NCBI RefSeq assembly: GCF_947581915.1
Contig: NZ_CANPWG010000038.1
Coordinates: 1-64,000 of the forward strand
Origin: Candidatus Palauibacter scopulicola
GTDB taxonomy: Bacteria; Gemmatimonadota; Gemmatimonadetes; Palauibacterales; Palauibacteraceae
Reading direction: 5' to 3'
DNA length: 64,000 bases
Shown: piece by piece, positions 40,439 to 55,861 of the stretch
Numbering within the stretch: the first letter of the stretch is position 1
How the letters are laid out: every line of letters begins with the position of its first letter
The notes under the pieces: generated by a model
Databases searched by the model: none
What the model was told of the DNA's origin: nothing
The model's input: the letters and a program-made list of their open reading frames with translations, nothing else
Translations under genes and position numbers: made by a program

Positions 40439-41461
40439 TCAGTGACTTATGGGTACGACCTGAAGACCCAGCACGAAGGTCAGGTCGGTTTCGAGCTGTG
40501 GACCCTCGAGGTCGCGAACGAGGGGCAGGAGCACTTCGCCCGCGACCCGAAAGGCCTTCGCCTGGGGAATATACAGGTTGAAGCTCACGCCCCCCTCGAC
40601 CACGGTGCCCGCGCGGAGGTCGGTGCGGGCCGTGGGGACCATCTGCGGGTTCACGCTGGGCGCGGCGTCCATTCCGTCGATGTTCCCGGTCCGGGTCGCA
40701 ACGAGCCGCAGGCCGACCGCAACGTTGCGCCCCAGCGCCCGCGCCCACCAGGCGGTCCCCTGCACCTTGTCGCCGAGCGCCCAGTCGCGGTCGTTCCTGC
40801 CGGTGCGCATCACGGCGTTCCCCTGGGCGCCCCAGGACCAGTCGCCGGCCTGGCCCAGCCACGTGAGGCCGGGGCGCAGGTCGAGCGTACCGGACCCGAT
40901 CTGCATCGGGTAGGGGAGCTGCACTTCCATCCCCTGACTGATGGGCAGGACGCCCCTCTCCTCGATCGACCCGGTCGGCAGGCCGACCACGGCGTTCAGG
41001 TGGAGCGACTGGTTCGCCCAGTCGGCCAGGCCGATCATCGCGCCCACCTTGACGTCGCCCATGCCGCTGGATTCGGTCGTGAACGATCCGCCATGGCGCG
41101 TGATATGGTCCATCGAACTCGACACGAAGGGGAGCATGGCCATGAACGTGATGCGATCGGACGGCGCGAACATGGCCCCGAACATGTGCATCGTCATGGG
41201 CATGCGGGTCGGCGTGATCATGAACCCCCCGCCCGGGGAAACGATGTCCGCATCGGCGATGGGATCCGTGCCGATACGGCTCCCCTCCATGGTCATCGTC
41301 ATGTAGCGGTAGGAGAGCATCACCTCGCCCGCCTCGTGGCGGTGGTCGCCCATGACTCCGATGGGGGCGTGGCTGTCCGCGCGCGAGGCGTTCCACTGCG
41401 CGGCGACGGGTGCGGCAAGGGCCAGCAGCGCGAATGCGCCGAGTATCGTGCTTTTCTTCAA
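40439..41461 (-). CDS. Methionine-rich outer-membrane beta-barrel (transporter-like)
   Basis: 340 aa. Start is TTG 41461 with AGGAG 7 nt upstream, giving a signal peptide (KKSTILGAFALLALAAPVAAQ). The mature protein is beta-rich and shows the pattern of metal/phenol-type outer-membrane 'transporter' barrels (FAPSDRITFMAMLPF, then DVKVGAMIGL and NAVVGLPTGS). It is unusually rich in Met and His: YMTMTMEGS, TRMPMTMHMFGAMF and SSMDHITRHGG suggest copper or another soft metal near the barrel. Downstream of the His-rich gene; 158-bp gap between them. Confidence 0.7.
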   Translation of the reverse strand: MKKSTILGAFALLALAAPVAAQWNASRADSHAPIGVMGDHRHEAGEVMLSYRYMTMTMEGSRIGTDPIADADIVSPGGGFMITPTRMPMTMHMFGAMFAPSDRITFMAMLPFVSSSMDHITRHGGSFTTESSGMGDVKVGAMIGLADWANQSLHLNAVVGLPTGSIEERGVLPISQGMEVQLPYPMQIGSGTLDLRPGLTWLGQAGDWSWGAQGNAVMRTGRNDRDWALGDKVQGTAWWARALGRNVAVGLRLVATRTGNIDGMDAAPSVNPQMVPTARTDLRAGTVVEGGVSFNLYIPQAKAFRVAGEVLLPLVRDLEGPQLETDLTFVLGLQVVPISH

Positions 41462-41619
41462 GGTTCGACTCCTCGTTCGACAGGGAATGCGCCGCCGATC
41501 GATGCACGCGGCCAACGGGCGCCGCGATCGATTCGGCAACGGGCACGAGCGCGCGCGGCGGCCTTCGCGGCCGACGCGGTTCACGCCCTGGACGACTTGT
41601 AGCAGCTAGCGTCGAGGAG

Positions 41620-42105
41620 TCAGGCGGGGGGTGGTTGAGCGAACGGTCTGAGATAGGCGGTCGGGTCGGGGGCCGGCCTGGAGTCGGGTCGCTCTCTGCG
41701 CGGTGATCGGCTTTCCGACGTGGGCTGAGCGGCCCGTACGGCGGACGCCACGTGTGCCGGACCGGAGCAGGTGAGGCAGATGCCGAGGCAGTCGCAGGGT
41801 CCGTCCGAATGGGGATGCGCCGGCGCGGCGCCCGAGCCTTCGGCGTGAGCGGACTCCGCGTGGCGGTCCGCCCGGCCGGCCTCCGCATGCGTCCCGTGGT
41901 CCGCATGCATCCCGTGGTGCGCGGCGGCCTGGGTCGTCCCCGACTCGTCACCGTGCGCCGCTTGATGCTTCGGACAGGGCTGAACGACCGCGCCCGGGCC
42001 GATCCCGAGGAGGAAGGCCGCGATGACGGCGTACGTATCCATTCGGACGCGTACTCGCCCTCTACCCACGATGCGGCTCCGCTGTCCCGGACGGTTTCGA
42101 GCCAT
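41620..42105 (-). CDS. Histidine-rich, cysteine-containing membrane or exported protein
   Basis: 161 aa from ATG 42105 (140 aa from an alternative ATG at 42042). One hydrophobic segment (TYAVIAAFLLGIGPGAVV, about 24-41) is followed by a His-rich region (KHQAAHGD, AAHHGMHADHGTHAEAG, HPHSDG), a cysteine cluster CDCLGICLTC and a basic tail. This composition points to binding of copper, zinc or nickel in the periplasm; no family was recognised. It lies 42 bp after the PDZ gene and before the Met-rich barrel, so all three may be cotranscribed. Function by composition only. Confidence 0.5.
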   Translation of the reverse strand: MARNRPGQRSRIVGRGRVRVRMDTYAVIAAFLLGIGPGAVVQPCPKHQAAHGDESGTTQAAAHHGMHADHGTHAEAGRADRHAESAHAEGSGAAPAHPHSDGPCDCLGICLTCSGPAHVASAVRAAQPTSESRSPRRERPDSRPAPDPTAYLRPFAQPPPA

Positions 42106-42147: not shown

Positions 42148-43254
42148 TCAGCGCCGGGGCCAGACTCCGCTTATCTCTTCGCTCCCCCGAACCCATACCA
42201 CCCCGAGACCCTCGTTCCCTTCCGATTCCAGCGCGGCGACGAGATCCTCGACATCGCGTATCGGCCGGCCGCCCGCTCTCACGAGGAGATCTCCCGGCCC
42301 GAGCCCGAGCCGGTCGGTGACCGTCCCCCCGGCGACCCGGAGCACGAGGAGGCCGTCGAGGCCGGGCCGGTCGGAAAAGTCGCGCACGGGCTCGAACTCG
42401 GCCCCGGCGAACGTGCGCTGGAAGCGGACGGCGAGTTCCGTTTCCTCCAGTGCCAGTTGGGCGATGCGAATCGCGCGGCGCCGGAACTCCGCCGGCGAGA
42501 GGCGGGCCCGCACCGCCCCGACGCGCTCCAGCGCGCCCGCGAAGTTGCGATACGCCGATTCCGATTCCCGCTGCAGATCGCTCAGCACTTCCCGGCGGAC
42601 GGCCGGCAACTCCGAGACCGGCCGGTCGCGCACCGGAAGCACGTTGAGACGACCGTCGACGACCCGCACGGCGGAGGGTTCCACGGCGACGCCGACATCC
42701 TCCGTATTGCGGACGGTGAGCGCGAAGCCGGGGCGGTCGCCCTCCGCCGGATCCGTCAGCCAGAGGACGAACGTGTTCCGCTGCGGAGTACCGGCGGTCG
42801 CCACCACCGTCCGGCGGCCCACCATCGGAACAGCGTCCGCGTCCGGCGGCCGGACGTCGGGAATGATCTCGAAGGTATGGCGCAATCCGTCCCGGTTCAC
42901 TTCCAGTCGAACGGGAACGCTCGCTCGGATGGACGCGAGCCGGTCGGGCAGGTTGGCCAGAGTGAGTTCCACGCCGTCCATCGCCGCGAGCCGGTCGCCG
43001 GCGCGGAGCCCCGCGCGCTCCGCCGGACCGTCTTCCTGCATCTCGCGAATCCGGAGGACAAGCGTGCAGTTCTTCCAGTCTTCCGAAGTCTCCCAGCCGC
43101 AGTTGAAGCGTTCCTCGACCCGCACCCCGATCCAGCCAGCGGATTCCGCCGTCCCGGCCTCCTGCGCGGCGGCGACGAGGGCGGCGAACGGCAGGGCGGC
43201 CAGGGCGAGGGACGAAGCCAGCGGCGTGCGCGGCCGCGCGAGGAGCCGGGTCAC
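42148..43254 (-). CDS. Periplasmic two-PDZ-domain protein
   Basis: 368 aa; GTG start at 43254 overlaps the anti-sigma stop (GTGA). A signal peptide (PLASSLALAALPFAALVAAAQ) leads into a first PDZ domain (about 45-145: GWIGVRVEE, GDRLAAMDGVEL) and a second C-terminal PDZ (about 290-360: VTDRLGLGPGDLLVRAGGRPI). No serine-protease triad is seen, so it is a binding rather than a DegS/DegP-like protease. Its place right after a sigma/anti-sigma pair suggests a periplasmic sensor or a partner of the anti-sigma factor. Confidence 0.75.
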   Translation of the reverse strand: MTRLLARPRTPLASSLALAALPFAALVAAAQEAGTAESAGWIGVRVEERFNCGWETSEDWKNCTLVLRIREMQEDGPAERAGLRAGDRLAAMDGVELTLANLPDRLASIRASVPVRLEVNRDGLRHTFEIIPDVRPPDADAVPMVGRRTVVATAGTPQRNTFVLWLTDPAEGDRPGFALTVRNTEDVGVAVEPSAVRVVDGRLNVLPVRDRPVSELPAVRREVLSDLQRESESAYRNFAGALERVGAVRARLSPAEFRRRAIRIAQLALEETELAVRFQRTFAGAEFEPVRDFSDRPGLDGLLVLRVAGGTVTDRLGLGPGDLLVRAGGRPIRDVEDLVAALESEGNEGLGVVWVRGSEEISGVWPRR

Positions 43255-43949
43255 CAGGTTCGCGTCCCGCGCGCGCGGCCCAGGTCCTCCGCGAGCCGAT
43301 CGCGCGTCTCCACGAGTTCCAGCAGATAGGCGCTGGCGAACGGATCGTCGGGACTCGTCTCGAGGCCGTCGCGCAGTGCCCGAATATACCCCTCCAGCGT
43401 CGCCAGCCTCTGCGCCATCTCCAGGGGATCCCGCTCCTCCGGCCCGCCTGCAGAAGCGGGGTTCACCCCTCCCTCTCCGACCTGTCTGAGCGGCGACCGC
43501 AGCGATTCCATCCGGTTGAGCCCGTCCACGAGGGCGCGACCGTCGTCGGTGGAGACGACGGCCGGGAGATCCGCGAGATCCGCGGCCGACGAGTTCGCGG
43601 ACGGCCCGCCCGTGAACTGGAGGCCGGCGACCACGCCGCCGGCGAACAAGACGAGCGCGGCGGCGGCCTGGAGCGGTCCCCGGACGAAGAGACGGCCGGC
43701 GAAGCCTCCTCCGGTCCGGCGGACGCCGGCACGCGTCTCGCCGGTATCGAGCGCGGCTTCGATGGCGGCCCACTGTCCGGCCGGCGCCTTCTCATCCGGA
43801 AGCGCGGACAGCGCCATGCGCATCCGGCTCAACCTCTCGAACTCCGCCTGGCAGTCCCTGCACGTCTCGAGGTGGGCCCGGCAGTCCCGGTCCGCCCACG
43901 GCTCGTCGAGCAGCGCCGAGATTCGCTCGGCATCCATGTGGTTCGCCAT
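43251..43949 (-). CDS. Zinc-finger anti-sigma factor
   Basis: 232 aa. The N-terminal ~40 residues carry a zf-HC2/anti-sigma zinc finger: AHLETCRDCQ (His-x3-Cys-x2-Cys). A central hydrophobic segment (LQAAAALVLFAGGVVAGLQF, about 95-114) makes it a single-pass membrane protein with a periplasmic C-terminus that ends in a coiled-coil-like stretch (YLLELVETRDRLAEDL). It directly follows the sigma gene (14 bp) and would sequester that ECF sigma factor. The ATG at 43949 gives an N-terminus at the zinc finger. Confidence 0.85.
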   Translation of the reverse strand: MANHMDAERISALLDEPWADRDCRAHLETCRDCQAEFERLSRMRMALSALPDEKAPAGQWAAIEAALDTGETRAGVRRTGGGFAGRLFVRGPLQAAAALVLFAGGVVAGLQFTGGPSANSSAADLADLPAVVSTDDGRALVDGLNRMESLRSPLRQVGEGGVNPASAGGPEERDPLEMAQRLATLEGYIRALRDGLETSPDDPFASAYLLELVETRDRLAEDLGRARGTRTW

Positions 43950-43963
43950 CTCTTCCAACCCTC

Positions 43964-44575
43964 TCAGAGGCGCGCTTCGCCCCGCGCACCGCCGTCCCCG
44001 GAATCCTCCGGAGCGATGAGCTTCCGCATGCGCGCCCGCGCCTTGTGCAACTGCGACTTCGAGGTGCCGGGCGAACACCCCAGAGCCTCGGCGATGTCGT
44101 TGTGCGTCCACCCTTCCACGTCGTGCAGCACGAGGACCCTCCGGTACCCCGGCGGCAACTGGTCCAGCGCCTTCGTCAAAACCCGCCGCGTCACGATCAC
44201 GTCGTCGTGCGCCCGCACGACGCGCGGAAGCTCGGCGGCGGATTCCACCGGACGCCGCTTCGACGACCGGCGCAGCCGGTTGAGCGCCACGTTCGTCGCC
44301 AACCGGTAGAGCCACGTGCCGAAGGCCGCGTCACCCCGGAAGAGGTGGAGCTTCTCGAACGCGCGGATCCACGCTTCCTGGGAGAGGTCCTCCGCGAGGT
44401 GATCGTCGCCGACGAGGCGGCGGATCACGGTGTAGACGCGCCGCGCGTGGAGTTCGTACAACTCCCCCATCGCGGATCGCTCTCCCGCCTTGGCACAGGC
44501 GATCAGGTCGCGTTCTTCCACGTCATCCCTCTGAAGGTCACCTTCCGGATCCACCGCTTCTGATGCGCGGTTCAA
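43964..44575 (-). CDS. ECF (RpoE-like) sigma factor
   Basis: 203 aa from TTG 44575 (196 from GTG 44554). Region 2 is ELYELHARRVYTVIRRLVGD followed by DLSQEAWIRAFEKLHLFRGD, then WLYRLATNVALNRLRR; region 4 is LDQLPPGYRRVLVLHDVEG and a helix-turn-helix with HNDIAEALGCSPGTSKSQLHKAR. This is a standard group IV sigma factor. The TTG start overlaps the PAP2 stop (TTGA), placing it in the same transcript as the sphingolipid genes; the GTG is an alternative. Its promoter target may include this operon (autoregulation is common in the family, not shown here). Confidence 0.88.
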   Translation of the reverse strand: MNRASEAVDPEGDLQRDDVEERDLIACAKAGERSAMGELYELHARRVYTVIRRLVGDDHLAEDLSQEAWIRAFEKLHLFRGDAAFGTWLYRLATNVALNRLRRSSKRRPVESAAELPRVVRAHDDVIVTRRVLTKALDQLPPGYRRVLVLHDVEGWTHNDIAEALGCSPGTSKSQLHKARARMRKLIAPEDSGDGGARGEARL

Positions 44576-45459
44576 CCCGCGGGTTGCCCGCCTTCGGCAG
44601 CCCGGGCGCCGCGGGCCCCGGCGTCGGCCGCGCGCAGTACGGCGCAGACCAGCAGCCCGAGCAGGATGCCCGCGAGGGCGTCGACCGCATAGTGGAAGCG
44701 ACCGTAGACCGTCCCCGCAGTCAACGCGAGTTCCGGGATGAGGAGGAGCCAGAACCAGCGCCGATCCTCGCGCCCGGCGGCCAGGACCCCGGCCAGGGAG
44801 GCGGCGATGTGGGAACTGGGGAAGGCCGTGCCCTTCGACGAGCCGGCCTCCAGGATCCCGTGCACGATCCCGAACAGCGTCCCCTCGCCGATCTCGCCGC
44901 CGATCTGCGCGAACTCGTATCGGGGACCGGCGACCGGGAAGAACATGAAGATGAGATAGGAGACGAAGAAGGCGGCGGCCACGGCGAGGGCGGTGCGCTG
45001 CATGGCCTCGAGCCCCCGCGTCGCGAACACGCCCAGGATGGCGGCGGGGATGATGGCGTAGTAGGCGAAGTAGCCCAGGTGCAACACCTCGGAGAAGGGG
45101 AGCCAGGGGAGCGACGCGCTGAGGCCGATGCTCGGCTGTCCGCCGAACAAGGCGGCATCCCACGCCTGCACTGTCGCGTCGAAGTACCGCTGCGTGAGAA
45201 AGCGGTTGAGGACCGCGAGTTCCGCATACAGGAGGGGCGTGAGCAGCACCGCGTACGCCCCCCTCGCGATCGCGGCGACGCCGGCGCGGGGGCGCCAGGC
45301 CGCAAGTCGCGTGATCCCGAAGACGGCGATCGCGTGGGCCGCCGCGATGCCTGCGCCGGACAGGCCGCCGAACGCCACCGCAATGAGGCCCGTGCAACCG
45401 AAGTAGCCGATGGCGACGCGATCGACGGGCAGGAGCCCTCCGCCGCGGCCGCCGCTCAC
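44572..45459 (-). CDS. PAP2-superfamily (Aur1-like) phosphotransferase/phosphatase
   Basis: 295 aa, about six membrane helices. Start GTG 45459 overlaps the reductase stop (GTGA). PAP2 motifs: AFPSSHIAASLAG and TVYGRFHYAVDALAG (His and Asp in the last motif), with YYAIIPA and a DAALFGG motif typical of the PAP2_3/inositol-phosphorylceramide-synthase-like branch. In Bacteroidota and fungi related proteins put a phospho-headgroup on ceramide. Its position in a ceramide-type operon favours that role, but a simple lipid phosphatase cannot be ruled out. Confidence 0.7.
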   Translation of the reverse strand: MSGGRGGGLLPVDRVAIGYFGCTGLIAVAFGGLSGAGIAAAHAIAVFGITRLAAWRPRAGVAAIARGAYAVLLTPLLYAELAVLNRFLTQRYFDATVQAWDAALFGGQPSIGLSASLPWLPFSEVLHLGYFAYYAIIPAAILGVFATRGLEAMQRTALAVAAAFFVSYLIFMFFPVAGPRYEFAQIGGEIGEGTLFGIVHGILEAGSSKGTAFPSSHIAASLAGVLAAGREDRRWFWLLLIPELALTAGTVYGRFHYAVDALAGILLGLLVCAVLRAADAGARGARAAEGGQPAG

Positions 45460-46409
45460 AGCCAGCCCTTTCGGCGATACCACTCGGCGGTGCGCGCGAG
45501 CCCGTCTTCGATGCCGACCCTCGGACGCCAGGGGTCGAGAACCCTTCGGCTCGACTCGATGTCGCATGTCCAGGCGTACACGGACAGATCCCGCGCCTGT
45601 CGCCGGTCGAAGGCGGGGGCCTTCCCCGTCAGGCGGGCGGCGGGTTCCGACAGGGCCCCGGCGGCGAGAAAGAGCGCGGGCGGCAGCCGCAGCACGCGCC
45701 CCGGGCGGTCCACGGCGGCCATCAGCGCGCGCGCCAGCGCGCCCCAGGAATGGCGTTCCGCCCCGGCGATGGGGAGCGGGAGCGGCGCCGGCTCCGCGTC
45801 GAGGGCGGCGAGGACGGCCGAGACGACATCGGCGACGTACACCGGCTGCAGGGGTGCGTGGCTGCGCGGAATCACGGTCCAACCTCGCGCCGCCAGCCGG
45901 AAGAGCGGCAACAGGTCGGCGTCGCGCGGGCCGTAGACGCCCCCCGGCCTGAGCACGGCGACCTCCATCGACCCGGGGACGGAGGCGAGCGCCGCCTCCG
46001 CTTCGGCTTTCGACCGACCGTACGGGCTCACGGGTCCGGCCGCGCCATCCGGACCGCGGGCGGCGAGGCTGCTGATGAAGACGAACCGCCGGACTCCCGC
46101 TTCCGCCGCCGCGTCCGCGAGCCTCCGCGTGCCGACCGCGTTCACGGCCATGAACTCCGACTCGTTACGCGCCCGCGTGAGGGCGCCGCAATGCACGACG
46201 GCGGCGCAACCCGCGAGTGCCGCGGCCGCTCCTGGTCCGCCCTCCACCCCGAGGTCGAGTTCGGTCTTCCTCAACTCGAGGCGATCGAGCCGCCGCGTGT
46301 CGCTCGTTCGCCGCACGCTCGCGGTGACCCGGTGGCCGGCCGCGACGAGGGTCTCGGCGAGATGGCCGCCGAGGAACCCGCTTCCCCCCGTCAGGAAGAC
46401 CGATGCCAC
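45456..46409 (-). CDS. NAD(P)-dependent epimerase/reductase, CerR-like
   Basis: 317 aa extended SDR. Glycine motif LTGGSGFLGGH near the N-terminus, catalytic Ser (FISSLAA) and Tyr-x3-Lys in PYGRSK. C-terminal LPPALFLAAGALSEP and YAWTCDIESSRRVLDP resemble the 3-beta-HSD-like epimerases associated with bacterial ceramide synthesis, where CerR reduces the keto group. GTG start at 46409 overlaps the upstream stop by one base (TAGTG); no own ribosome site is visible, so translation depends on coupling. Assignment to ceramide reduction is contextual. Confidence 0.7.
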   Translation of the reverse strand: MASVFLTGGSGFLGGHLAETLVAAGHRVTASVRRTSDTRRLDRLELRKTELDLGVEGGPGAAAALAGCAAVVHCGALTRARNESEFMAVNAVGTRRLADAAAEAGVRRFVFISSLAARGPDGAAGPVSPYGRSKAEAEAALASVPGSMEVAVLRPGGVYGPRDADLLPLFRLAARGWTVIPRSHAPLQPVYVADVVSAVLAALDAEPAPLPLPIAGAERHSWGALARALMAAVDRPGRVLRLPPALFLAAGALSEPAARLTGKAPAFDRRQARDLSVYAWTCDIESSRRVLDPWRPRVGIEDGLARTAEWYRRKGWL

Positions 46410-47539
46410 TAAAGGGCCGCTTCGTACAGCCGGTAGGTCCGGTAGATCCTGCCGCCGAGACGCTCGATGGCCTGGTTCATCTTCTGGTTGTCCTCGAGGA
46501 TCCACGACTGTTCGGCGGACGTCATCCCTGCGGCGATCCCCTTTCTGAACAGCCAGAGGTAGAGGAGGACATCGACGGCCTTTCCGCGCCACTCCTCGGC
46601 AAGCCCCAGGATGATCACGCGCATGCACGTGATTCTCCGCCTGTAGATGAGCGCCTTCAGAATCCCGAAGGGGAAGAGTCGGCCGTTCATCCGGCGCAGC
46701 ACCTGGTTGAAGTCGGGGAGGGCAAGGGCGAAGCCGGCGGTCTCGCCCTCCGGCGTCTCGGCGAAGAGCGCGAGTTCGGGGTCGAGTATGGGCTTGAGTT
46801 CGGCCGCCATGTGATCCATCTCGGCCTCGGTCATGGGGACGAAACCCCAGTTCTTCTCCCACGCCGCGTTGTACAGGCGCTGGACGCGGCCGAGTTCTTC
46901 GTCGAAGCGCGACATGTCCAGAGTCTTGATCCGGATGCCGTACCTGCGGGTCGCGACCTTTTCGGCGCGGAAGAGGTGCGGCGGCCAGTCGCCCTTCTTC
47001 ATGAGCCAGGCGAAGAGATCCTTGACCTTCCGCAGCCCCGCGGCCTCCAGCAGCGCGGGATAGTACGGGGGGTTGTAGGCCATGAGGACGACGGGCGGCC
47101 CGGGATCTCCGTCGATGAGCAGGCCGCAGGTCTCGTTGGTCGAGAAGCTCGTGGGACCCCGCATCGCGGTAAGGCCGCGTTCCCGCAGCCAGGCCCGGAC
47201 CGCGTCGAGCAGCGCCCCGGCCACCTCCGGGTCGTCTACGGACTCGAACCAGCCGAAGAATCCGACGGACTCGTCGTGCGTCCGCTCGTGGTTCCGGTTC
47301 CGGATCGCGCAGATTCGGCCCACGGCCCGGCCGTCGCGCAACGCGAGGTAGGGCTGGATTTCCGAGTGCAGGTGGAACGGGTGTTTCGTCGGATCGAAGG
47401 CCGCCCGTACGTCTCGCCTGAGCGGGGGCACCCAGTCGGGATCGCCCCGGTAGATGGACCACGGCAGGTCGATGAAGCGCTTGAGATCGGCGCGGCTCTC
47501 GACGGGGACGACGCGCACGGAGGAGGCAAGACTCGTCAT
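46409..47539 (-). CDS. GNAT-like acyltransferase, candidate bacterial ceramide synthase
   Basis: 376 aa. Large protein with a GNAT-like N-terminal part (VRVVPVESRADLKRFIDLPW, then EIQPYLALRDGRAVGRICAI) and a C-terminal acyltransferase-like half (IYRRRITCMRVIILGLAEEW, where Arg/Gly-rich residues could hold an acyl thioester). Proteins of this family accompany serine palmitoyltransferase and CerR-type genes in several bacteria, and a GNAT-fold enzyme is the ceramide synthase in Caulobacter. It follows spt by 16 bp here. Direct sequence relation to the Caulobacter enzyme was not tested. Confidence 0.6.
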   Translation of the reverse strand: MTSLASSVRVVPVESRADLKRFIDLPWSIYRGDPDWVPPLRRDVRAAFDPTKHPFHLHSEIQPYLALRDGRAVGRICAIRNRNHERTHDESVGFFGWFESVDDPEVAGALLDAVRAWLRERGLTAMRGPTSFSTNETCGLLIDGDPGPPVVLMAYNPPYYPALLEAAGLRKVKDLFAWLMKKGDWPPHLFRAEKVATRRYGIRIKTLDMSRFDEELGRVQRLYNAAWEKNWGFVPMTEAEMDHMAAELKPILDPELALFAETPEGETAGFALALPDFNQVLRRMNGRLFPFGILKALIYRRRITCMRVIILGLAEEWRGKAVDVLLYLWLFRKGIAAGMTSAEQSWILEDNQKMNQAIERLGGRIYRTYRLYEAAL

Positions 47540-47555: not shown

Positions 47556-48758
47556 TCAGACGACGCCGAGCTCCTTCCCCACGCGCTCCACCTGTTCGAG
47601 CACGAAGTCGAGGTCGTCGTCCGAGTGCGTGGCCATGTAGCTCGTGCGCAGGCGGCAGCTCCCCTCGGGAACCGCGGGGGGGACGACCGGGTTCGTGAAG
47701 ACGCCCGCTTCGAACAGGGCCCGCCAGAACACGAAGGTCTTCTCCATGGGCCCGATGAGAATGGGGACGATCGGGGTCTCGGTCGGCCCGATGTCGAACC
47801 CGATCGACTTGAAGCCCTCCATCATCCTGTGCGTGTTCTTCCAGAGCTGCTCCCGGCGCTCCGGCTCCTCGCGGATGATTTCGAGCGCCTTCAGCACGGT
47901 GGCGGCGGAGGCGGGAGGCATGCTCGCGCTGAACATGAGGGCGCGGGCGTTGTGCTGGAGGTAGTCGATGACGTCGGCGCGGCCCGCCACGAAGCCGCCG
48001 ATCGAGGCGAAGGACTTGGAGAACGTGCCGAGGATCAGGTCCACCTCATCGGTGAGCCCCCAGTGCTCGGCGGTCCCGGCCCCGGTCTCGCCCAGCACGC
48101 CCACGGCATGCGCGTCGTCCACCAGGATGGCCGCGTCGTACTCTCGCCTCAGTTCGACCAGCGTGGGCAGATCGGCGATGTCGCCTTCCATGCTGTACAC
48201 GCCGTCCACCGCGATGAGCTTGCCGCGCGAGGGCCCCTCGGCCTCGAGCATGCGGCGCAGCGTCGCGAAGTCGTTGTGGTTGAAGCGGCGCGTGCGGCCG
48301 AGCCCCAGGCGTACGCCATCCTGCAGGCTGGCGTGGTCCAGCTTGTCGATGTAGACCGTGTCCGCGCGACCGATCAACGCGCCCAGCGTGCCCAGATTCG
48401 TCTGGTAGCCGGTTGAGAACACGAGCGCGGCCTCCATGCCGGTGAAGTCGGCGAGTTCGGCCTCGAGTTGCTCATGGAGATCGAGGTTGCCGTTGAGGAA
48501 GCGGCTGCCCGTATTGCCGCTGCCGAACTTGTCGAGGGCCTCGCGGGCCGCCTCGAGGACCCGCGGATCGTGCGTGAGTCCCATGTAGTTGTTGGAGCCC
48601 ACCATGATCTTGCGGGCGCCGTCGATGACGACCCACGTGTCGTGAGAGGCCTCGATGGGCATGAAGTACGGGTAGAGACCGGACTCGCGGAGGTTGTGCA
48701 CGGTCGCTAGTTCACGACACTTGGCAAGGATCGAAGGCGGCTGGACGCGGCTTTTCAT
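47556..48758 (-). CDS. spt: Serine palmitoyltransferase-like enzyme (alpha-oxoamine synthase)
   Basis: 400 aa PLP enzyme. PLP lysine Lys248 in GTFSKSFASIGG; stacking His in DHASLQDG; DDAHAVG. The N-terminal ESGLYPYFMPIEAS is the distinctive signature of bacterial serine palmitoyltransferases (close to the GLYPYFRPIES form of Bacteroidota), rather than of BioF, KBL or HemA. It condenses serine with an acyl thioester to form 3-ketosphinganine, the first step of sphingolipid synthesis. The ATG at 48758 gives the usual length; a GTG at 48803 would add 15 residues. First gene of the long minus-strand chain. Confidence 0.85.
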   Translation of the reverse strand: MKSRVQPPSILAKCRELATVHNLRESGLYPYFMPIEASHDTWVVIDGARKIMVGSNNYMGLTHDPRVLEAAREALDKFGSGNTGSRFLNGNLDLHEQLEAELADFTGMEAALVFSTGYQTNLGTLGALIGRADTVYIDKLDHASLQDGVRLGLGRTRRFNHNDFATLRRMLEAEGPSRGKLIAVDGVYSMEGDIADLPTLVELRREYDAAILVDDAHAVGVLGETGAGTAEHWGLTDEVDLILGTFSKSFASIGGFVAGRADVIDYLQHNARALMFSASMPPASAATVLKALEIIREEPERREQLWKNTHRMMEGFKSIGFDIGPTETPIVPILIGPMEKTFVFWRALFEAGVFTNPVVPPAVPEGSCRLRTSYMATHSDDDLDFVLEQVERVGKELGVV

Positions 48759-48896
48759 TGAGCCCGACCGGGACACCGCAGCTTGAGATGTAGGTTTCTG
48801 CACGAATCGAAGCTAAGCGCGAATCGGGACGCCCGGCAAGAAAAAACGGCCCTGGCGGCTCGGTGAAATCGATGACCTTCCATGGGGAGGAGCAAC

Positions 48897-51246: not shown

Positions 51247-51364
51247 GGGCCGAAATTACGTTGTCGACCGCCTGGTGTAGCAAGCGCTCCGTCGACCGTC
51301 GCGCCTGCCGTCGAGGCGGCACGGTCGTTTGCCGCTATTCGCGTCTGCGGGTAACTATGACGGC

Positions 51365-53029
51365 ATGAACACGCCCTCGGACGGGGAACTCCTCGCGAAA
51401 TGGCGGGAGGAGCCCGCTCCTCTGCTCCCCCTGCTGCACGAGTTCCACGAGAGGGACGGACACCTCTCGGAGAACGCCCTGCGCGCCATCTCCGACGACC
51501 TGCGGATCCCGATCGCGGACCTCTTCGGTACGGTGACGTTCTACCACCATTTCTCACGGGATCCCGGAGGGTATGCGCACGCCCGCATCTGCACGGGACC
51601 CATCTGTGCCTTGCAGGGGGCCGACGAACTGCTGGCCGCGATGCCGAACGCGCATGCGATGCCCTGCCCGGGGCGTTGCGACGAGCCGATTCCGGTCCTC
51701 GACCGGGACCGCGTCCTCTGCGGAACCACGGTCGCGGAACTCGTTTCCCGACCCTCTCCTCTCCCTCCCGCTCCACACCCGGACATCGAGGAATGCGTCT
51801 TCGCGCACATCCGGACTCCCGGACGCGCGACGTTCGCGGGCTATCGGGCGACGGGCGGGTATTCGGGTCTCGACAAGGCCCTCCGCGGGCGGCCCGGCGC
51901 GCTGCTCGATGCCATCGACGCGAGCGGCCTCGCCGGGCGTGGCGGCGCCGGCTTCCCCACCGGACGGAAGTGGCGGGCGGTGGCCGAGGCCGCCGGGGAG
52001 CCGAAGACCATCGTGTGCAACGCCGACGAGGGGGAGCCGGGCTGCTTCAAGGACCGGGCGCTGATGGACTACGACCCGCACGCGGTGATCGAAGGGATGA
52101 TCGCCGCCGGCTTCGCGACGGGCGCCACGCGGGGGTTCATCTACCTTCGCTACGAGTACCCGGATACGATGCGCATCCTGGAGACGGCCCTCGAAGAAGC
52201 CCGCGGCGCCGGGCTGCTGGGGCCCGACGCCCTGGGGCCCGGACAACCGTTCGACCTTTGGGTGCGCCGCGGCGCGGGCGCCTACATCTGCGGCGAGGAG
52301 ACGTCTCTTCTCAACAGCCTGGAGGGCAAGCATCCGTTCCCGCGCAACCGGCCGCCCTTCCCGGTGACGCACGGGTACGAGGACCTTCCCACGGTCGTGA
52401 ACAACGTCGAAACGCTGGCCTCCGTGCCTCATATCCTCGTGCACGGCGCCGACTGGTACCGCGGGCTCGGGATCGGCGACCACGCGGGCACGAAGGTGAT
52501 CTCGCTCTCCGGGGACATCACGCGCCCCGGCAACTACGAAGTACCGATGGGCTTCCCCCTGCTGACGCTGATCGACGACTGCGCCGGCGGCGTGCCGGGC
52601 GGACGGAAGATCCAGGCGGTGACGATGGCGGGGCTCTCGGGCGGCTTCCTGGCCGGCGAGGCGCTCGACGTCACGCTGGACGAACCCGACATCCGCTCGA
52701 AGGGGTCTTTCCTGGGTGCGGGCGGCATCATGGTGTTCGACGACTCGCGGGACATGATCGCGGTCGCGCATTCCGCCATGGAGTTCTTCGCCGAGGAATC
52801 CTGCGGCAAGTGCTTCCCCTGCCGCATCGGCACGCAGCGCCTGACGGAGCGCCTGCACGGCGACGGCCCGCCCGACATCGGCGCCTGGATCGACGAGGTG
52901 CACGATCTGGGCGACACGATGATGCAGACGAGCGCCTGCGGCCTCGGGCAGGCGGCCCCCCTCATCACGGAGAGCCTGATCCGCTACTTCCCGGATCGCG
53001 TCTCCCGGCACGTCACCGAATCTCGCTAA
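51365..53029 (+). CDS. NAD-linked formate dehydrogenase diaphorase subunit, NuoE-NuoF fusion
   Basis: 554 aa. N-terminal thioredoxin-like [2Fe-2S] domain (about 1-130) with Cys76, Cys81, Cys101 and Cys105 (CTGPIC, CPGRC), then a NuoF-like domain: FMN motif GRGGAGFPTGRKW (about 190), NADH-binding ADEGEPGCFKDR, YICGEETSL and a C-terminal [4Fe-4S] set in SCGKCFPCRIGT. In soluble NAD-dependent formate dehydrogenases these are usually two proteins (FdsG and FdsB); here they are fused. It passes electrons from the catalytic subunit to NAD+. The ATG at 51365 gives a natural start; 108 bp precede the catalytic subunit. Confidence 0.88.
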   Translation: MNTPSDGELLAKWREEPAPLLPLLHEFHERDGHLSENALRAISDDLRIPIADLFGTVTFYHHFSRDPGGYAHARICTGPICALQGADELLAAMPNAHAMPCPGRCDEPIPVLDRDRVLCGTTVAELVSRPSPLPPAPHPDIEECVFAHIRTPGRATFAGYRATGGYSGLDKALRGRPGALLDAIDASGLAGRGGAGFPTGRKWRAVAEAAGEPKTIVCNADEGEPGCFKDRALMDYDPHAVIEGMIAAGFATGATRGFIYLRYEYPDTMRILETALEEARGAGLLGPDALGPGQPFDLWVRRGAGAYICGEETSLLNSLEGKHPFPRNRPPFPVTHGYEDLPTVVNNVETLASVPHILVHGADWYRGLGIGDHAGTKVISLSGDITRPGNYEVPMGFPLLTLIDDCAGGVPGGRKIQAVTMAGLSGGFLAGEALDVTLDEPDIRSKGSFLGAGGIMVFDDSRDMIAVAHSAMEFFAEESCGKCFPCRIGTQRLTERLHGDGPPDIGAWIDEVHDLGDTMMQTSACGLGQAAPLITESLIRYFPDRVSRHVTESR

Positions 53030-53137
53030 CCGCCCGTTGGGAGGGCGCCCGGATTTGTCGCAGCGGGCGCGCCGCGTCATGTTAGTGGGCCCGGCAGTTT
53101 CCAGCGGTGCGGGGTTCTCGCGCCCCCGGAGGTGGGT

Positions 53138-55861
53138 TTGAGCGACAATTCGGGCAACGGCACGGGCTTCGATTTCGAGATCACGCTCGACGGCGAGAAG
53201 GTCGGCGTCCGTCGGGGCGAGAGCCTGTACGAGGTCTCCGAGCGGCACCGCAAGGAGATCCCGACGCTGTGCTACGATCCGCGCCTGGAAGCCTTCGGCG
53301 GCTGCCGTCTCTGCATCGTGGAACTCGACGGCGCCCGCAACCCGGTCGCCTCCTGCACCATGCGGGCGGAGCCCGGGATGCGGATCACGACCCGTTCGGC
53401 GCGGCTCGACATGCACCGCAGGGTGCTGATGGAGATGGTCGCCTCCGAGAACCGCGACACGGATGTCGACCCGCTCTCCGGCTACGCTTCGCAGGAGATG
53501 GCGGTCCTGCTTGACCGTTACGAGGCACGGACGGGCCGCTTTGCCGGGGCCAGGTCCGGCCGCAGCCGGCCGGACGACGACAACCCCTTCATCCTCCGCG
53601 ACTACGAGAACTGCATCTCCTGCTACCGTTGCGTGCGGGTCTGCGCGGAGCAGGAGGGCGACTACGCGATCTCGGTCATGAACCGGGGGTTCGAGACGCA
53701 GATCACGACAGAGTTCGAAGGCCTGCTGGGGGACTCCGCGTGCACGTTCTGCGGGCAGTGCATCCAGACCTGCCCGACCGGCGCCCTCGCCGACATCAAG
53801 GCGCTCGCGAACGCCGACGTGCCGGGCGAGACCGAGAAGACGCGAACCGTCTGCCCCTACTGCGGCGTCGGGTGTGCCGTCGACCTGATGTCTCGGGGCG
53901 ACAAGCTGATCGGCGTCCAGCCGGCGATGGATGGGCCCGCCAACGAGGGCGCGCTCTGCGTCAAGGGGCAGTTCGCGTTCGACTTCGTGCAGCACCCCGA
54001 CCGACTGGCCTATCCGATGGTGCGGGGCGAGGACGGCGAACTCCACGAAACCGACTGGGACACGGCCCTCGACCGCGCGGCGGCCGGGTTCACGGCGGCG
54101 GTGGAGAATCACGGCAGGCATTCCGTGTACGGCGTCGCCTCCGGGCGTGCGCCGCACGAAGCGGCCTACATGATGCAGCGGTTCATCCGAGGCGCGTTCG
54201 GTACGAACCAGATCGACAACTGTAGCCGTGCCTGACACGCCCCCACGGTCGCCGGTCTGGCGGCCTCTATCGGACGGGGGGCGATGTCGAATCCACTCGC
54301 GGACATGGACAAGCCCGATGTGATCTTCTGCATCGGGACCAACATGACCGAGTGCCATCCCGTCGCGGCCACCCGCATCAAGCGCGCGGTGGCCCGGGGC
54401 GCGAAGCTCATCGTCGCCGATCCGAGGCGGATCGCGCTGGCCGAGATGGCCGACATCTACCTGCCGTTGAGGGTGGGGTCGGACGTCGCCCTCTTGCTCG
54501 GCATGGCCCACACGATCGTCCGCGAAGGGCTGATGGATGAAGATTTCGTGGCCGCCCGCACGACGGAGGGCCAGGACTTCGTCGAGCACGTCCTGGAGTA
54601 CCCGCCGGAATGGGCCGAATCGATCACCGGGGTGGACGCGAAGCTGATCGCGGAGGCGGCCCGCTGGTATGCGAAGGCGGAACGCGGAGCGATCTACTAC
54701 ACGCTGGGGATCACGGAGCACATCTGCGGCGTGGACAACGTGCAGAGCCTCTGCAATCTCGCCCTCATGACCGGCAACGTCGGCCGCGAGGGCACCGGGA
54801 TCAACCCGATGCGCGGCCAGAACAACATCCAGGGCGCGGGCGACTCCGGAGCGCTGCCGAACAACTATCCCGGCTTCCAGGACGTGCTCGACCCGGCGTA
54901 CCAGGCGAAGTTCGCCGCCGCCTACGGCCGGGAGGTGGACCTCGAACTGGGGCCCACGAAGGTCACGGCGCTCGAGATGTGCGGCGACCGGATCCGCGCC
55001 ATGATCATCAATGGCGAGAACACCGTCGTCACGGACCCCGACCGGGAGCATTGCGAGCACGCGCTCCGGAGCCTCGACCACCTCGTCGTGATCGACATCT
55101 TCCTCACCGAGACGGCGCAGTTGGCGGACGTCGTCCTCCCCGCCACCTCGTGGGCGGAGACGGACGGCGTGTGCTCGAATACGGAGCGGCGCGTCCAGCG
55201 CCTGCGGAAGGCCGTGGACCCGCCGGGCGAGGCGAGACCCGACTGGTGGTGCGTGTCCCGCATCGCGCAGCGCATGGGGCTGAAGGGTTTCGAGTTCGAG
55301 TCGGCCAAGCAGGTGTTCAACGAACTCTGCTCGCTCTCGCCGATCTATGCCGGCCTGGACTGGGATGTGATCGAGCACGGCGAGTACCACTGGCCGGTGC
55401 CGCACCGGGGTCACCCCGGCACCCCCATCCTGCACCAGGGCGAGTTCGAGAACGGGCGCGGGATCTTCCAGATGATCCGGTACCGGGACCCGGCGGAGAC
55501 GATTTCGGAGGAATACCCGATCTGGCTTACGACCGGACGCCGCCTGCCTGCCTATCACACCAGAACGCAGACCGGGCGTGCGGCGGGGATCGAGTACCTC
55601 CTGTCGGAAGAGCGTCTCGAGATGCACCCGGCCGACGTGTCGAAATGGGGTCTCGAGGACGGCGGCTGGGCCATGATGTCGAGCCCGCGCGGCCAGGTCC
55701 GGATCAAGGTCGAGGCGAACGACCGATCTCCGCCCGGAACCGTGTTCGCGTCATTCAGCTTCAACGACGTGCCGGTGAACTTCCTCACCGGAGGCGGCTA
55801 CGACCCGATCACGCACACGGCCGAGCTGAAGGTCTGCCCCGTGAGGGTGGAACCCGTCTAG
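53138..55861 (+). CDS. fdhA: Formate dehydrogenase catalytic subunit read through in-frame TGA (Sec366)
   Basis: 907 aa read as a single frame through TGA 54233-54235. N-terminal NuoG-like part: [2Fe-2S] Cys45, 56, 59, 73; two [4Fe-4S] ferredoxin motifs (159/162/165/169 and 202/205/208/212). Mo-domain [4Fe-4S] Cys239, 242, 246, 274. At codon 366, DNCSRA-(TGA)-HAPTVAGLAASIGRGAMSN matches the Sec/Cys loop of formate dehydrogenases (compare ARVU-HGPSVAG of E. coli FdhF), so the TGA is almost certainly Sec. The rest (GTNMTECHP, GQNNIQGAGDSGALPN) is intact. Oxidises formate to CO2. TTG start 53138 has GGAGG 5 nt upstream; an internal ATG after the TGA (54284) would lose most of the enzyme. Confidence 0.9.
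54233..54264 (+). promoter_or_regulatory. SECIS element of fdhA, fdhF-like
   Basis: Eighteen nt after the TGA (54233-54235), the 5-nt loop GGTCT (54254-54258) tops a 6-bp stem GTCGCC (54248-54253) / GGCGGC (54259-54264) with one G-U pair. From memory of the E. coli fdhF SECIS, both its apical loop (GGUCU) and the 18-nt spacing from UGA are the same. This is strong evidence for SelB-dependent recoding. Confidence 0.8.

Follow-up and report, generated by a model that had tools for sequence, protein, structure and literature searches.

We think it fairly probable that an envelope-stress sigma factor module in Candidatus Palauibacter scopulicola is expressed from its own ECF-type promoter, downstream of a sphingolipid operon with a separate promoter, and is regulated when a secreted PDZ protein captures the C-terminal tail of the anti-sigma factor. 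Within the window, by which we mean the whole 64,000-nucleotide stretch of DNA that was analyzed, seven genes on the minus strand follow one another in a single direction: spt, GNAT, SDR, PAP2, ECF sigma, anti-sigma and PDZ (Table 1). We observe a conserved gene content and synteny, two promoters that are conserved as sequence sites, and an association between an aromatic anti-sigma tail and a neighboring PDZ gene. The close named matches to the window genome are Ca. Palauibacter rhopaloidicola and Ca. P. denitrificans. Palauibacterales is an order of marine and sponge-associated bacteria. Its description has been published (PMC10469786).

Table 1. Features of the sphingolipid and sigma factor locus, in window coordinates.
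Feature	Position	Strand	Remarks
Sigma70-type promoter of sphingolipid operon, TTGCCG-N18-TAGCTT	48810..48839	-	pattern search upstream of spt
spt, serine palmitoyltransferase	47556..48758	-	ATG start (GTG-started form reaches 48803)
GNAT-type acyltransferase, bCerS-like	46409..47539	-	weak PF13480/PF00583; adjoins spt
NAD-dependent SDR/epimerase, CerR-like	45456..46409	-	PF01370 94 bits
PAP2_3 family membrane protein	44572..45459	-	PF14378 50 bits
ECF-type sigma promoter GCAACC-N16-CATCAGA	44559..44587	-	-35 within PAP2 3' end
ECF sigma factor, regions 2 and 4	43964..44521	-	GTG start; PF04542, PF08281
Zinc-type (ZAS) membrane anti-sigma factor	43251..43949	-	HLETCRDC at 43851-43874; hydrophobic segment ~43611-43676
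Anti-sigma C-terminal tail RTW, proposed PDZ ligand	43254..43262	-	aromatic end kept in unfused PDZ-linked orthologs
Secreted double-PDZ protein without protease domain	42148..43254	-	PDZ1, PDZ2 match DegP/DegQ/AlgW/DegS PDZ domains
PDZ1 carboxylate-loop-like motif GWIGV	43123..43137	-	present in most orthologs

Sphingolipid genes and their linkage to the sigma factor

Judged by score, the spt of the window is a genuine serine palmitoyltransferase. It reaches 528 bits against the NCBIfam model of this enzyme, which is the top score among the alpha-oxoamine synthases, yet lies below the model's cutoff of 640 bits. Among PDB structures the best match is again serine palmitoyltransferase (449 bits, against about 305 for the best chain of another kind), and for both models and structures the serine palmitoyltransferases score above BioF/Kbl. 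The in-frame GTG at 48803 almost coincides with the predicted transcription start. Class and position suggest a bCerS-like role for the GNAT protein and a CerR-like role for the SDR, and the GNAT gene adjoins spt in all spt-carrying loci of the order. The PAP2_3 protein is likely to be a sphingolipid head-group transferase or phosphatase of the AUR1-like superfamily; its match to the NCBIfam phosphoinositol-dihydroceramide synthase is weak (E 0.028).

We took sigma orthologs from 100 related genomes and examined the surrounding DNA for 40 of them. As the earlier note had proposed, this allowed a synteny survey of spt-linked ECF loci. In 25 other genomes of the order, drawn from both sampled families, the full seven-gene order is present in 22 loci, and the linkage is beyond chance. 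Two of the remaining loci are interrupted by contig ends and only one of the 25 (G037) is a true exception, with spt-GNAT at another place and SDR and PAP2 still adjoining sigma. Across the order the block stays intact while its proteins diverge to about 25–50% identity, and the genes that flank it differ from genus to genus on both sides. Presence and absence point the same way: four of the 43 genomes of the order are without both GNAT and sigma, two fragmented genomes have GNAT with sigma undetected, and none has sigma without GNAT. On this sequence evidence the sphingolipid/sigma linkage is ancient and extends over the whole order.

In the rest of the class the triad of sigma, anti-sigma and PDZ genes is kept, with no sphingolipid genes nearby. 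Many genomes of the class carry the spt-GNAT-SDR(-PAP2) cluster away from the triad. Because both exist apart elsewhere in the class, it seems that two independent modules were joined in Palauibacterales. In other families of the class the genes that the earlier note had described as a single chain thus do not lie together. Outside the order (L028–L042) the triad often has a divergent thrC on one side and a convergent MacB/MacA/TolC-like cluster on the other, in several families.

Two promoters

The sigma factor is about 185 amino acids long and consists of regions 2 and 4 only, with a short linker. Its conserved start codon is the GTG at 44521-44519 (VEERDLI...), preceded by AGAGG, which is most likely the true start and leaves 50 bp between the end of PAP2 and sigma. 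In one genus this gap widens to about 450 bp. The TTGA overlap of PAP2 and sigma described earlier does exist as letters (44572-44575), but the TTG that produces it is missing in the close congeners examined (L003–L006). The other two junctions are as described before, with 14 bp (43950-43963) between the stop of sigma and the ATG of anti-sigma, and a GTGA overlap of the anti-sigma stop with the GTG of the PDZ gene (43251-43254).

In most orthologs an ECF-type site, GCAACC-N16-(CGTC/CATC/TATC)NAA, precedes the start of sigma by 53–70 nt. In the window it occupies the 3' end of PAP2 and the gap between PAP2 and sigma. The AAC / CGTC-type promoter that characterizes the ECF class is hence present at sigma as conserved sequence. 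A matrix whose training loci came solely from outside the order finds this promoter upstream of sigma at all 26 loci from the order, and upstream of spt at none of 20. The site is presumably autoregulatory. The reverse holds for the sigma70-type pattern TTGNNN-N16-19-TANNNT, which is found upstream of spt in all 20 loci of the order (shuffled sequences would give 0.4) and upstream of sigma in 0 of 26. Across the order the spt promoter reads TTGCCG-N17/18-TAGCTT, the second family having mostly TAGAAT or TAATAT; the genus of the window has TTAGCTT.

A single transcript joined by a TTGA overlap is therefore rejected, by the conservation of the start codon and by the separate conserved promoters before sigma and spt. 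Both outcomes that the earlier note had named as counting against its view were seen, unlinked genes in other families and a promoter between PAP2 and sigma. Since none of 20 loci has the ECF promoter ahead of spt, direct control of spt by the ECF sigma factor has no support either. A search of the minus strand between PAP2 and sigma showed nothing resembling a terminator, so that read-through from the sphingolipid operon into the regulator is possible. An apparent ECF site before the SDR gene was discarded; it occurs in near-identical congeners only and lies within the coding sequence of GNAT.

Beyond its own operon the sigma factor may have other targets. Strict promoter matches were set aside as a way to its regulon: in one genome (G026, family f1) a strict genome-wide search returned the sigma promoter as the sole site. 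With one mismatch allowed, family f2 has 29 sites compared to 13 in a reversed control. Judged by eye, they lie ahead of genes for MacB/FtsX-type permeases, secreted enzymes and barrel-like proteins, an observation that is suggestive only. In three loci from two genera of f2 (L169, L179, L181) a one-mismatch ECF promoter lies closely upstream of MacB/FtsX-type permease genes.

The anti-sigma tail and the PDZ protein

The anti-sigma factor has the H-x3-C-x2-C motif and the single hydrophobic segment (a transmembrane helix) of a ZAS protein. Its profile match to RsiW is weak (E 0.0014), and a structure search gave no significant match. Together with the ECF sigma factor and the secreted double-PDZ protein it makes up a membrane regulator of the envelope-stress type, as had been noted before. 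Some members elsewhere in the class lack the zinc ligands HxxxCxxC, for instance those of one family (L101–L105), in which the aromatic tail and the PDZ neighbor are kept.

Outside the genus the anti-sigma factors have about 23–38% overall identity to the window protein, and their periplasmic part is poorly conserved except at its very end. All 50 unfused PDZ-linked loci encode an anti-sigma factor with an aromatic residue at the last or last but one position. Tails seen in the alignment include RTW, VVEW, SVEY, LEYR, VLWR, DNWF, DDWY and similar ends, and models place the tail beyond the last helix as a flexible or disordered segment. As a control we used 40 other ECF loci of the same genomes, which were picked by sigma similarity alone with their neighbors unknown. 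The aromatic tail is present in eight of eight control loci with a PDZ gene and in none of 32 without (Fisher p 1.3e-8, a value that ignores kinship). PDZ-linked anti-sigma factors appear to form one clade. Hence, the pairing of tail and neighbor could reflect common descent in addition to a shared function. A natural fusion speaks for the pairing: in one minus-strand locus (L009 of G013) PDZ2 is fused in frame to the transmembrane part of the anti-sigma factor, and the aromatic tail is lost together with PDZ1 and the periplasmic helices.

The PDZ protein consists of a secretion-type N-terminus, PDZ1, a middle region and PDZ2, with about 35–40 residues ahead of PDZ1. The GWIGV motif of PDZ1 resembles a carboxylate loop, and the groove motif of PDZ1 is better than that of PDZ2. 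Pfam contains no match to a protease domain, and PDB sequence matches are limited to the PDZ domains. We also considered the middle region as a degenerate protease, but it yields a low-confidence helical/beta model and no protease match. The protein does not belong to the HtrA/Deg family, lacking a trypsin-like domain with a catalytic triad, nor to RseB/MucB, since it has PDZ domains and not the RseB fold. By analogy, it may nevertheless work like RseB. The suggestion that it senses rather than cuts is thus supported, and we can be more specific: it probably grips a protein end, the likeliest candidate being the aromatic C-terminus of the anti-sigma factor itself.

From these observations we infer a mechanism of binding, competition, proteolysis and read-through. 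The periplasmic PDZ protein would bind the aromatic tail and shield the anti-sigma factor from site-1 proteolysis, as RseB and MucB do for RseA and MucA. Competitors for the PDZ groove would be free aromatic C-termini, for example those on outer-membrane proteins that have not been assembled. In the window genome, at least 11 TonB receptors end in F or Y. Once the PDZ protein is displaced, the anti-sigma factor would be cut and the sigma factor would transcribe its own operon as well as envelope genes. In Palauibacterales, read-through from the sphingolipid operon may additionally make sensor levels follow the production of sphingolipids.

Other observations count against tail capture. In some tails the aromatic residue is followed by R, H or N, which is unusual among PDZ ligands. 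The fusion of L009 retains PDZ2 and drops PDZ1 despite the better groove motif of PDZ1. Finally, there is no predicted sigma site upstream of spt.

Alternative readings and known systems

Why the sphingolipid genes and the sigma module are adjacent in this order can be explained in several ways: a shared envelope function, dosage through read-through or passive linkage are all possible. One could argue for a single operon in which sphingolipid genes and regulator are co-transcribed and the sigma factor senses or controls sphingolipid status. The seven-gene order that is kept amid changing flanks, the joint absence of GNAT and sigma and the lack of a terminator-like site would all fit. We consider this unlikely, however, given that spt and sigma have separate conserved promoters, that the gap between PAP2 and sigma can reach about 450 bp, that the modules are apart in the rest of the class and that the ECF site is absent at spt. 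A plausible account, to which we give slightly less than an even chance, is that the triad landed by the sphingolipid operon in the ancestor of the order and stayed there without functional coupling. The triads of other families, which sit between thrC and the MacA/MacB/TolC-like cluster without sphingolipid neighbors, speak for such a passenger, as does the locus of G037. What speaks against it is that both flanks were repeatedly rearranged while the block held over about 50% protein divergence. This account bears on the linkage and is compatible with tail capture.

The sign of the PDZ effect is a separate matter. The PDZ protein could be an adaptor that delivers the anti-sigma factor to a site-1 or site-2 protease, a positive role instead of a guarding one. 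The association between tail and PDZ gene fits an adaptor too, and the PDZ domains of DegS and RseP are known to act on anti-sigma factors during proteolysis (PMC8103513). The precedent of RseB and MucB favors a guard, and sequence alone cannot separate the two signs; we regard the adaptor as rather improbable and prefer the RseB-like guard by analogy. The most far-reaching version combines everything: a protease-free PDZ receptor reads a tail with which the anti-sigma factor mimics outer-membrane proteins, and in Palauibacterales the switch is linked with the synthesis of sphingolipids, which would let the cell sense their supply along with the assembly of the outer membrane. We are very doubtful that all of this holds.

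Several known systems come close to this one. The MucD gene belongs to the AlgU-MucA-MucB cluster of Pseudomonas aeruginosa. This system (with AlgW) has a sigma factor, an anti-sigma factor and a PDZ protein clustered as in Palauibacter, but MucD and AlgW are HtrA proteases, whereas the Palauibacter protein has no protease domain. The sigmaE-RseA-RseB system of Escherichia coli, with DegS and RseP, shares an ECF sigma factor, a membrane anti-sigma factor, a periplasmic partner and, as proposed here, a PDZ domain for aromatic C-termini. The difference is that the Palauibacter PDZ protein, without a protease domain, stands where RseB stands, and that its proposed ligand is the native C-terminus of the anti-sigma factor. 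The PDZ domains of DegS and AlgW bind YxF (YQF) or WVF C-termini and thereby sense unassembled outer-membrane proteins (PMC8545111). Anti-sigma factors of the RsiW, RsrA and ChrR type share H-x3-C-x2-C and an N-terminal helical domain; the Palauibacter type differs by its periplasmic helical domain and conserved aromatic C-terminus. Ceramide clusters with spt, bCerS and CerR, known from Caulobacter and Black Sea MAGs (PMC11334938), contain spt, GNAT and SDR, often clustered, whereas in Palauibacterales the cluster extends to PAP2 and then adjoins an ECF module. The main text of the Black Sea survey mentions neither Gemmatimonadota nor sigma factors.

The basic parts (ECF sigma, ZAS and PDZ) are of known kinds; what appears to be new is the aromatic tail on PDZ-linked anti-sigma factors. 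In the literature searched, which covered few subscription papers, we found no description of an ECF module beside sphingolipid genes, of a non-proteolytic PDZ partner of an anti-sigma factor or of a link between sphingolipid production and envelope state. If the interaction between tail and PDZ domain is real, the sensor would be a simple one, in which the inhibitor bears a copy of the signal and a protease-free PDZ protein senses competition. It would also define an envelope-stress pathway for the poorly studied phylum Gemmatimonadota. The order-wide linkage offers a concrete site to ask how sphingolipid production ties to the state of the envelope, and the probable grip of a protease-free PDZ protein on the aromatic tail suggests a possible way of sensing envelope damage.

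Two more genes follow the PDZ gene on its 3' side in the same direction, encoding a His/Cys-rich secreted protein directly next to it (41620-42105, minus strand) and a second exported protein (40439-41584, minus strand). They were seen within the genus and not beyond it, and possibly function in metal handling. Elsewhere in the window, genes of the NAD-dependent formate dehydrogenase type (NuoE/F-like and an iron-sulfur subunit) occupy 51329-54235 on the plus strand, and an FdhD-like gene lies on the other strand.
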